Shown: positions 16,521-18,488 of the stretch, piece by piece | Layout: the number at the start of each line of letters is the position of its first letter | Position numbering within the stretch: the stretch's first letter is position 1 | Source: Methylophilus sp. | GTDB lineage: Bacteria > Pseudomonadota > Gammaproteobacteria > Burkholderiales > Methylophilaceae | Assembly (NCBI RefSeq): GCF_008015755.1 | Contig: NZ_SSGF01000010.1 | Coordinates: 1 to 64,000 of the forward strand | Length of the DNA stretch: 64,000 nucleotides | Reading direction: 5' to 3' | Program-made: the position numbers and the translations under genes | Notes under the pieces: model-generated | What the model saw: the letters and a program-made list of their open reading frames with translations, nothing else | Told to the model about the DNA's origin: nothing | The model's database searches: none

Positions 16521-16781
16521 ATGGACAAACGCCGCATCCACTCTGGCAAACTGCGCGCGATTGGTTACGATGCACAAACACGGACTTTAAGCGTAGAACT
16601 TGAAGATGGCAGCGCACTGGCATATGCCAACGTCGGCGAAAGTATTTGGCGTACCCTCAAAAATGCCAGCAGCCCGTGGAGCTATTACCGCGACAATATT
16701 GCAGAAGAATTCACGGCCAGCCGCGTTGCCAGCAAGCCAGCATCCAACGGTAAAAATCCGCTAGATGACTTATTTGGCTAG
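16521..16781 (+). CDS. KTSC-domain protein
   Basis: An 86-aa protein matching the KTSC domain: IGYDAQTRTLSVELEDG, then YANVGESIWRTLKNA and the conserved SYYRDNIAEEF. This short domain occurs alone or joined to lysyl-tRNA-synthetase-like and phage proteins; its function is not established. The ATG at 16521 directly follows the preceding stop, suggesting coupled translation. Its stop codon overlaps the stop of a broken gene fragment on the other strand (CTAG). Confidence 0.75.
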   Translation: MDKRRIHSGKLRAIGYDAQTRTLSVELEDGSALAYANVGESIWRTLKNASSPWSYYRDNIAEEFTASRVASKPASNGKNPLDDLFG

Positions 16782-16921
16782 ACGACTGGCGTCGCGGGGG
16801 GATTCAAGACCTGCCACAACAAATACACGCGGCAATCAAACTCATACTGCATATAGTTAGGCTCCATATGCAAACACAACTGGTAAAACGCCTTGTCGTG
16901 ATCGCGCTCTTTTAAGTGCGC
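16778..16921 (-). pseudogene. C-terminal fragment of a split YgjP-type metallopeptidase gene
   Basis: Reading the minus strand from 16921 gives AHLKERDHDKAFYQLCLHME and continues to a stop at 16778. It aligns position by position with the C terminus of the complete YgjP-type protein at 17366-17857 (HLKEKDHNKAFYKLC...). It lacks a start and the first half of the zinc motif; the missing front is the fragment at 17948-18326. The two halves were evidently one gene before the element between them arrived. Confidence 0.75.
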
Positions 16922-17146
16922 TTGTTTACTTACAAGTGGGCATCAAATGGACACATCAACATTGAAAAAAATCAATGCTTTAGACTTTCGGTGGGTGTCC
17001 ATCAGACTCGACTCAAATATGGACAATTCAAATTGCAAATGTCCATTTCAAAGTCTATCCTTTGGTTCAAATTACTATACAGAATTAGATTTATTTAAAC
17101 ACAACATTAAGAAATATAATTACTTTTGCGCATAAAGAATTAAGTG

Positions 17147-17325
17147 ATTTTGTAGTTATGGCCCAGTTTTTCTGGGCCTTTATGAGTTTAATAAGCTCTG
17201 AAAAAAGCTAAAGCTCAGTTACTAAATACCCCACCATCATCTTAAGCAATAGGTATTTAAAGCTGCTTAAAAATTAACTTTAGAAGTTTAATTTTTTACA
17301 AACTGCAATTTCATAACTACAAAAT
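17147..17325. repeat. 14-bp perfect inverted repeat around an A+T-rich 151-bp core
   Basis: ATTTTGTAGTTATG at 17147-17160 is repeated exactly inverted at 17312-17325. It could be the ends of a tiny nested MITE or the base of a structured RNA downstream of the YgjP-type gene. Confidence 0.45.
17160..17178. terminator. Hairpin GGCCCAG-TTTTT-CTGGGCC
   Basis: Perfect 7-bp GC-rich arms with a 5-base loop followed on the plus strand by TTTATGAG. It resembles a rho-independent terminator but lies about 190 bp past the end of the minus-strand gene, inside the inverted repeat 17147-17325. Confidence 0.45.
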
Positions 17326-17365
17326 GGTGGCTTCTGGACCTTATCAAGATTCTAGCTTTATCTGC

Positions 17366-17857
17366 TCACGAGAGATCTCGCCAAGTTAACCAAACCCGCA
17401 AATCAAACTCCAACTGGTGATAGTCCGGCTCCATATGACAACACAGTTTGTAAAATGCTTTGTTATGGTCCTTTTCTTTCAAATGCGAGAGCTCGTGTAT
17501 CACGATCACCCTTAAAAATGCCTCTGGTGTCTCACGAAAAAGCGCGGCAATATGAATTTCATTTTTACTTTTGAGCTTACCGCCTTGCACTCGCGATACG
17601 AATGTATTGGTGCCAAGTGTACCTTTCATGGGGTGCTGCTGACTGTCATATGCTACTTTGGCCAAAACTGACGAGTTTTTGATGTACTGCTGTTTGATAT
17701 CTGTTACGTACTGATAAAGCGCCTTGTCAGTTTGTATATCGTGGCGAGATGAATACTTGTGCTTTAGCCAGTCGCCAAGTTGATCTTGCTCCAGCAAATC
17801 TTCGATGCGTGCGATAAGTTCGGCAGGATAACCATTGAGGTAAGGAAGTTTGGTCAT
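17366..17857 (-). CDS. YgjP-type M48-like metallopeptidase (element cargo)
   Basis: A 163-aa cytoplasmic protein of the YgjP/DUF45 metal-dependent hydrolase family. The zinc site HELSHLKEKDHNKAFYKLC gives HExxH with the downstream conserved His/Phe pattern, and RVQGGKLKSKNEIHI is the family's central segment. The cellular role of this family is not settled. The gene is complete and lies within an element that splits a homologous gene, whose fragments flank it at 16778-16921 and 17948-18326. The two copies share the same architecture but differ clearly in sequence, so it is not a recent duplicate. No good ribosome site is visible before the ATG. Confidence 0.78.
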   Translation of the reverse strand: MTKLPYLNGYPAELIARIEDLLEQDQLGDWLKHKYSSRHDIQTDKALYQYVTDIKQQYIKNSSVLAKVAYDSQQHPMKGTLGTNTFVSRVQGGKLKSKNEIHIAALFRETPEAFLRVIVIHELSHLKEKDHNKAFYKLCCHMEPDYHQLEFDLRVWLTWRDLS

Positions 17858-17885
17858 GGCATGCTATAGCGAGTATTTTAATAGA

Positions 17886-18326
17886 CTAATTATGTCCATT
17901 TTTTGTTAACTTGAGCATTCTGGTACAAGATGAATTACTTGTGAGTACCAGCTCATGCACCACAATCATCTGCAAAAATTCCAGTGGCGCTGCTTTAAAA
18001 AATGCCGAAATACGGATTTCTTTTTTGGCCTTGAGTTTGCCGCCTTGCACGCGTGAAATGGCGGTGTTCAGGCCCAAGGTCTGCTTTTCAATGGTCAGTT
18101 TGTTGTCAAAATACACCTTATCGAGCAAGGGGGCGTTTTTTAAATAGCGCTGCTTGAGCGCCGTGCAAAAATCATACAAAGCCTTATCACTTTGTATCAC
18201 GTGCATCTGCGGATAACGTTGCTGAATATAAGCCCCCAGCTGCCCTTGCGCATGCAAGTGCGTTATTTGCGCGCGCACATGGGCAGGATAACCAGGAAGG
18301 TATTGTTGAATCAGTGTTGCAGACAT
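17886..18326 (-). pseudogene. N-terminal fragment of a split YgjP-type metallopeptidase gene
   Basis: The frame encodes a YgjP-type protein from MSATLIQQYLPGYPA through SRVQGGKLKAKKEIRIS to MIVVHEL, about 128 residues, then changes abruptly to an unrelated tail of about 18 residues read from the inserted element and stops at 17886. The second zinc-motif histidine and the C-terminal third are missing and are found about 1 kb downstream at 16778-16921. The truncated protein cannot bind zinc normally and is presumed inactive. Confidence 0.75.
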
Positions 18327-18488
18327 GCCACCATTTTAAAGAGCGGCTCTCATTCAAACAAGCTGCGCTTACATAGCTTATTTAACGTGCATAGCATATT
18401 CAACTGGCACATCTCATTTAACAGCTAATTTAAAAGATCGCCTGCGGCGTTAAGCGTAGCGTTAAATTTGTCGCCACTGGCCCCGGCA

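Follow-up and report, generated by a model that had tools for sequence, protein, structure and literature searches.

A diverged ygjP gene in a 1-kb insert that splits a ygjP-type gene of Methylophilus sp. within its HExxH codons

Described elements that split a gene and carry a copy of it

The element RME of V. cholerae S24 interrupts recA at a single site, brings with it, next to one of its ends, a complete copy of that gene with a diverged sequence and excises as a circle (PMC4405046). It is 32.8 kb long, has 9-bp inverted repeats, codes for a phage integrase and an XerS-type recombinase and took both orientations when its insertion was tested (PMC4405046). The same paper cites an insert in thyA of C. 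difficile (Knetsch et al., 2011). Tn6283 (SE-6283), a strand-biased circularizing integrative element (SE) of 13.8 kb, enters bcp of E. coli and carries a Bcp homologue with 54.8% identity; its copy on pSEA1 lies in another gene (PMC5991714, PMC10214605). Compensation was proposed by its authors, who also drew the comparison with RME (PMC5991714). The SE core genes are intA, tfp, intB, and srap, and the ends of these elements comprise the inverted motifs C and C′ with a one-sided 6-bp footprint (PMC10214605).

Another group, the GInts, was described in 2017 (PMC5385486) and is met with as a Tn6571-family transposon in PMC10121019, which notes defence cargo for E. coli GInts. GInts have a ginABCD operon, recombine by 6-nt staggered cuts and are bordered by 10–17-nt direct imperfect repeats. 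Their targets are mostly spared, as insertion affects 3′ ends or an outward promoter is present, and an nrdA-type target is duplicated in P. aeruginosa; no complete substitute is described in the passages on target genes (PMC5385486). Islands that split tRNA genes are known to restore them (PMC4383910).

Searches of the open-access literature found no paper that treats ygjP as a metallopeptidase and, among the matches listed, none that names it in connection with integration; the main texts of the GInt paper (PMC5385486) and the SE paper (PMC10214605) contain no mention of ygjP. The preliminary description of the present locus knew of no described element of this kind; this holds for ygjP as a target, but break-and-replace as such had already been published for recA (PMC4405046) and suggested for bcp (PMC5991714). 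As far as the searches go, the catalytic codons of ygjP as a target, the tie to a GInt-like island with defence cargo, the decayed state and the 1-kb form described below are new.

The split ygjP gene of Methylophilus sp. and its insert

In E. coli, YgjP has a role in nucleotide hydrolysis. The window, a stretch of 64,000 nucleotides from the genome of Methylophilus sp., contains a short ygjP-type gene on the minus strand, which is interrupted by 1,027 bp between the codons for HEL and those for AHLKE, and hence inside the HExxH motif. The N-terminal part (18326..17948) ends with ...MIVVHEL and one further base, and its reading frame continues into the insert to a stop codon ending at 17886. 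The C-terminal part (16920..16778) runs from (G)CG CAC, encoding AHLKERDH, to a TAG codon. A long-form ygjP without stops on contig C22 of the same genome is a different paralogue.

In searches with one genome per species, the short gene was matched in 15 of 21 congeners at 1e-10, with up to 93% identity to the N-part, and was absent from the matches in the other six. HELAHLK is uninterrupted in all 15, which represent the empty site. Compared with it, the left flank in the window keeps ...CATGAGCTGG and the right flank GCGCAC..., so that at most one base is shared and no target duplication is present.

The comparison with the empty sites places the insert at 16921..17947 on the minus strand, with 1,021 bp between the outer repeat ends and a spacer of 6 bp. 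Its termini are inverted repeats of 11 bp that differ at one position. The left terminal repeat (C side, minus-strand sequence TACTCACAAGT, 17937..17947) borders the N-part without a gap, whereas the near inverse ACTTGTAAGTA at the other end, which corresponds to the right terminal repeat (C′ side, TACTTACAAGT, 16927..16937, read on the plus strand), is followed by the spacer AACAAG (16921..16926, minus strand) and then by host DNA. Inverted repeats equally good within 10 bp of both ends occurred in 212 of 200,000 random pairs of places in the window. An inner repeat of the left end, CAAGTTAACAAAAAATGGACA (17893..17913, minus strand), has an inverted partner at 16933–16953 (76%). Read as a joined circle, the ends give ACTTGTAAGTA-AACAAG-TACTCACAAGT, i.e., repeat, 6 bp and inverted repeat.

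Near the right end, four ATGGACA motifs in alternating orientation were found at 16947 (+), 16996 (−), 17019 (+), and 17040 (−), covering 16947..17046 with offsets of 0/49/72/93. This number was reached in none of 20,000 base shuffles of 16927–17060, and the motifs are probably recombinase-binding sites. The spacer has no resemblance to a ygjP site and may be a 6-bp footprint of the SE/Tn554 kind. The AT-rich part of the insert also contains a perfect 14-bp inverted repeat (17147–17160 and 17312–17325) around a hairpin that looks terminator-like by eye. A search of 16700–18400 against Rfam gave no match, and an integron cassette was discarded as a candidate, as no attC-like layout was seen by eye.

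The insert carries a complete ygjP gene (163 aa) in the same direction as the broken gene (minus strand, 17366..17857), which starts 28 bp past the stop of the N-part reading frame. Its product matches the YgjP-like profile PF01863 (Pfam) with 38.8 bits at a cut-off of 26, has the HExxH motif as HELSH and is identical to the N-part at 62 of 123 aligned residues. The only other reading frames are two short ones on the plus strand (60 and 62 aa), and no recombinase is encoded. Because it has no recombinase of its own, the insert is a derivative and not a complete element.

One gene in two parts about 1 kb apart, a break inside HExxH and a complete, diverged gene of the same family between the parts had been noted in the preliminary description, and these points agree with the coordinates and similarities given here; the uninterrupted gene it proposed to look for in relatives is found in every congener that has the short ygjP.

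The locus resembles RME in the split of a gene at one site, the complete diverged copy next to one end and the inverted repeats; it differs in target, size and recombinases. With SE it shares the inverted repeats of the C and C′ kind, 6 bp apart in the joined circle, and a split attB kept in both junctions, as also known for Tn554-like ends. It differs from Tn6283 in its target and size, no reading frame of the insert corresponds to any of the four SE core genes, and the accounts of Tn6283 do not describe its Bcp homologue as end-proximal (PMC5991714, PMC10214605).

An artefact of assembly or contamination might be considered, given that the genome is a draft (2.75 Mb, 40 contigs, 94.3% complete). 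However, both junctions lie within one contig of 78 kb, the insert DNA has no match elsewhere in the genome that could have been misjoined, and an independent case exists in another family (see below), which makes this explanation extremely improbable.

A recombinase island at the same codon and the origin of the insert

When 399 genomes of the order were searched at the protein level, three ygjP pieces turned up on one contig of a genome from another family, G566. It is the only one of the 399 with an occupied HEL site and homologous ends among the matches listed (E to about 4e-7), and no large relative of the insert was found among the other 186 genomes of the family to which the window belongs. 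The G566 island (locus L337) has a size of about 15 kb (15,083 bp including the spacer). Its order is the N-part cut after HEL, the left end, a complete ygjP in the same direction, GajA/GajB, a recombinase operon, more cargo and the C-part. GajA and GajB lie side by side on the opposite strand (E 4e-279 and 2e-240), as required for Gabija, which is cargo of this island and not of the window insert. The operon comprises four genes of 486, 636, 668, and 127 aa and is called gin-like by the number, order and size of its genes. Among 72,556 plasmid records, 175 carry relatives of its first recombinase; in 128 of these the match covers 80% or more of the length, and the best has 53% identity, so that the operon type is widespread.

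The left end of the insert is the same as in G566: positions 17858–17948 of the window match it over 91 bp (E 2e-14). In 28 end comparisons, each against 500 shuffles, none of the shuffles was as good for the two left ends or for the two right ends. At the right end of the island, four ATGGAC[AT] motifs alternate in orientation as they do in the insert, with offsets of 0/49/70/91. Its spacer is AAATGG instead of AACAAG, and this difference fits the expectation for bases taken from a previous site. The stretch of approximately 320 bp that separates the motifs from the substitute gene had no match in G566 better than E 0.3.

Further searches did not add relatives. The insert DNA matched 13 records of the plasmid and three of the phage collections, with all matched ranges inside the ygjP coding sequence, and its non-coding half matched 11 others of the 399 order genomes over at most 41 bases. 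In viral contigs, the end pattern occurred in at least 120 stretches with one match each among the matches listed, and a longer left-end pattern in 11 contigs, none of which had ATGGACA within the next bases (best ygjP E-value 0.03); both were rejected as chance.

An ordinary DDE transposon with ygjP as a chance passenger would agree with the short inverted repeats, the AT-rich insert and a passenger gene as the only cargo. Mobile insertion cassettes are likewise small, have a passenger gene between repeats and are helped in trans; they depend on DDE transposases, and the target is duplicated. In the window the flanks share at most one base, so that such a duplication is missing, a recombinase island has homologous ends, and in two genomes the cargo is the very gene that was hit. 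An origin from a DDE transposon or a cassette is thus very improbable.

The phylogenetic position of the substitute was determined with a tree of 85 rows (79 different), consisting of 81 rows and four typed or joined ones. Its input were 44 of the 80 loci of one set and 38 others, with L051 left out for want of a stretch of 140 residues. The joined N- and C-parts group with the host genus, with the inner copy outside. The latter has a long end branch (0.25) and is the sister of the G566 element copy (98/88), with which it has 134 of 163 residues in common and a DNA identity of 82%. This pair falls into a group of six rows (96/87) together with Vogesella oryzae, Chromobacterium amazonense, a Pseudogulbenkiania bin and Neisseriaceae TC5R-5. 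To judge from these similarities, the substitute has its origin outside the genus, the nearest copies being those of Chromobacteriaceae and of the G566 element.

The tree also bears on a stepwise origin without any element, in which ygjP was duplicated at its own site and the copies diverged and decayed. Stepwise duplication and decay was named in the preliminary description as what would refute its reading, and it would account for three ygjP pieces in a row. It is contradicted by the empty site in 15 of 15 congeners, by junction sequences that are not derived from ygjP and match the ends of the G566 island, and by the inner copy standing apart from the host's own gene. Such a course is extremely unlikely, and the interruption is neither chance nor decay.

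The targeted site proposed in the preliminary description is backed by the same codon being cut in the window and in G566 with homologous ends and by a decayed case in C. amazonense (L072, see below), although cases are few. They are also what the proposed search for other occupied sites with different cargo yielded, i.e., one at the same codon and one decayed. The idea of an element that destroys a gene and brings its substitute is borne out by the empty site and by G566, but the window insert itself, having no recombinase, is not a complete element. Very probably, it derives from a tyrosine-recombinase island that targets ygjP and has a GInt-like operon, and it lacks the recombinases of that island.

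The G566 island resembles GInts in its three large recombinase-like genes and one small one, its cargo, which includes defence genes, and its site-specific insertion into a gene, a feature seen at the same codon in the window and G566 and in the decayed L072. The insert differs from GInts in having no gin genes. Direct imperfect repeats are not found either; in register on 6 bp, 9 of 22 positions agree between the two junctions of the insert, and 6 of 22 between those of G566.

The genome of the window contains seven matches to the profile PF00589, four of them in three multi-recombinase clusters (contigs C29, C38, and C28). By reading of the junctions, the C28 element is 5.94 kb long (L314:3849-9789 = C28:6849-12789) and splits a tRNA-Leu gene. 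Its ends have CAGGCTAAA in inverse orientation, with CTACCA at both junctions and a 6-bp spacer. Its four genes correspond in order and size to those of the G566 operon, and their products are 29, 26, 28, and 19% identical to the G566 proteins in that order, the last only at E 5e-4. Adjoining the 5′ half of the broken gene, it carries a complete tRNA-Leu(UAG), as named from its anticodon tag, and no other cargo was recognised in it. C28 and G566 thus show one arrangement for two different targets, in which the complete substitute lies on the side of the cut where the promoter is. For the C29 and C38 proteins, BLASTP gave no match in G566 or C28 at 1e-3, and the insert ends aligned with those of C28 and C38 no better than shuffles (29 to 420 of 500 as good). 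These BLASTP misses and the absent direct repeats lower the assignment to the GInts, not the mechanism.

A multi-recombinase island of 30 kb interrupts comM in the congener G005 (C1, about 156.8–187.3 kb; L336, L333) and, at the same site, in the genome of the window (C38; L313, L315, L316); the two are about 99% identical over the parts compared. No substitute for comM was found in it. Hence, not every multi-recombinase island brings a substitute, which argues against a general rule. The comM island was rejected as a parent of the insert, since all that speaks for it is CAGCTCAT, common to the target sites in comM and ygjP; in one comparison of a G566 end with a comM island end, 5 of 500 shuffles were as good. 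A different insert of about 8.5 kb was seen in comM of another congener (L335; G004:C3:300500-311500).

Taken together, the following course is proposed. As read from both occupied sites, a circular island with its ends joined by a 6-bp spacer would recombine with a site in the HExxH codons of ygjP, presumably by a GInt-like recombinase set. The cut in the gene would leave the host bases at the left junction and place the six bases of the spacer at the right one, which fits the sequences. The complete ygjP borne by the island then comes to lie just inside the left end in the same direction, the arrangement observed here. Owing to this position and direction, the host promoter could read through the N-part, and YgjP function would be kept. 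Finally, the recombinase operon and other cargo, which are absent from the insert, would have been lost, leaving the ends and the substitute. Points against this reading are that the insert has no recombinase and that the resident ones are distant (C28 19–29% identical to G566).

The insert appears to be mobile by origin, and the 1-kb form may itself have moved as a mini-element, with an operon at another place acting on it in trans. Neither the two ends nor the motifs near them are damaged, the reading frames of the flanking gene halves are open and resemble those of congeners closely, and three multi-recombinase elements reside in the genome. In addition, a lone right-end-like sequence is present at C16:11928-11954. 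Against this stand the lack of a second copy of the insert in the genome, the exact end patterns being found in none of 60 relatives, and the divergence of the resident recombinases and C28 ends. Travel as a mini-element is thus possible though less likely, and a loss of the middle in place after insertion is favoured. The right-end-like sequence on C16 adjoins a truncated antitoxin-like fragment, which we take to be DUF2384, and a pseudogene named mazE-like by eye.

Decayed and broken ygjP copies in other genomes

A second ygjP fragment was found in two of 80 loci (L072, L146), at most 3 kb per side being covered. In C. amazonense (L072), the complete gene is directly preceded by a fragment of the N-part and a decayed version of the inner end, collinear with G566, and no C-part was found in 3 kb downstream. 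From this arrangement, the locus is read as an old occupied site at which the gene of the element has been retained.

Break-and-replace with a complete, end-proximal substitute in line with the target promoter, as for ygjP and tRNA-Leu, may be a widespread strategy of GInt-like islands, a proposal on which the present cases leave us nearly undecided, leaning slightly against. If true, clean excision would be neutral while deletion of the island would remove the working copy, so that the host is tied to the island. A decayed island, as seemingly in C. amazonense, would leave a foreign gene permanently in place of the native one, and the 1-kb insert would be the smallest such unit, comprising ends and substitute. 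This would provide a concrete mechanism by which a foreign gene can suddenly take the native place of a conserved one, with a link to a defence-carrying island. The targeting of a catalytic motif may be affordable, as conserved active-site codons are dependable across families and the damage would be covered by the substitute. With two ends and one gene, the insert is a natural substrate for testing what the recombinases need.

In Photobacterium carnosum (L146; 2679-2789, 3001-5000), the neighbours of a reversed C-part are a complete ygjP and an unrelated gene. The C-part begins at query residue 125, HEL being residues 121–123, and adjoins unrelated sequence, which may hint at an island of another type that uses this codon.

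Among 187 genomes of the family, the short ygjP is read as broken by frameshifts in two (G028, G161), ends at contig edges in three (G167, G176, G194) and is matched only from residue 100 on in G145 and from residue 80 on in G165. Contig edges also account for the ends of ygjP in two of the 399 order genomes (G416, G507). In E. coli, the queried ygjP region was covered to at least 80% in one place in 5,361 of 5,426 genomes and had no match in 57; in the remaining eight, among the matches listed, one copy is broken near residue 56 and not at HEL. G447 was rejected as an occupied site, because its second ygjP fragment spans HEL and a cut there is thus missing. This genome has a complete ygjP with the decayed second fragment about 1.7 kb off (L338:5701-8186).
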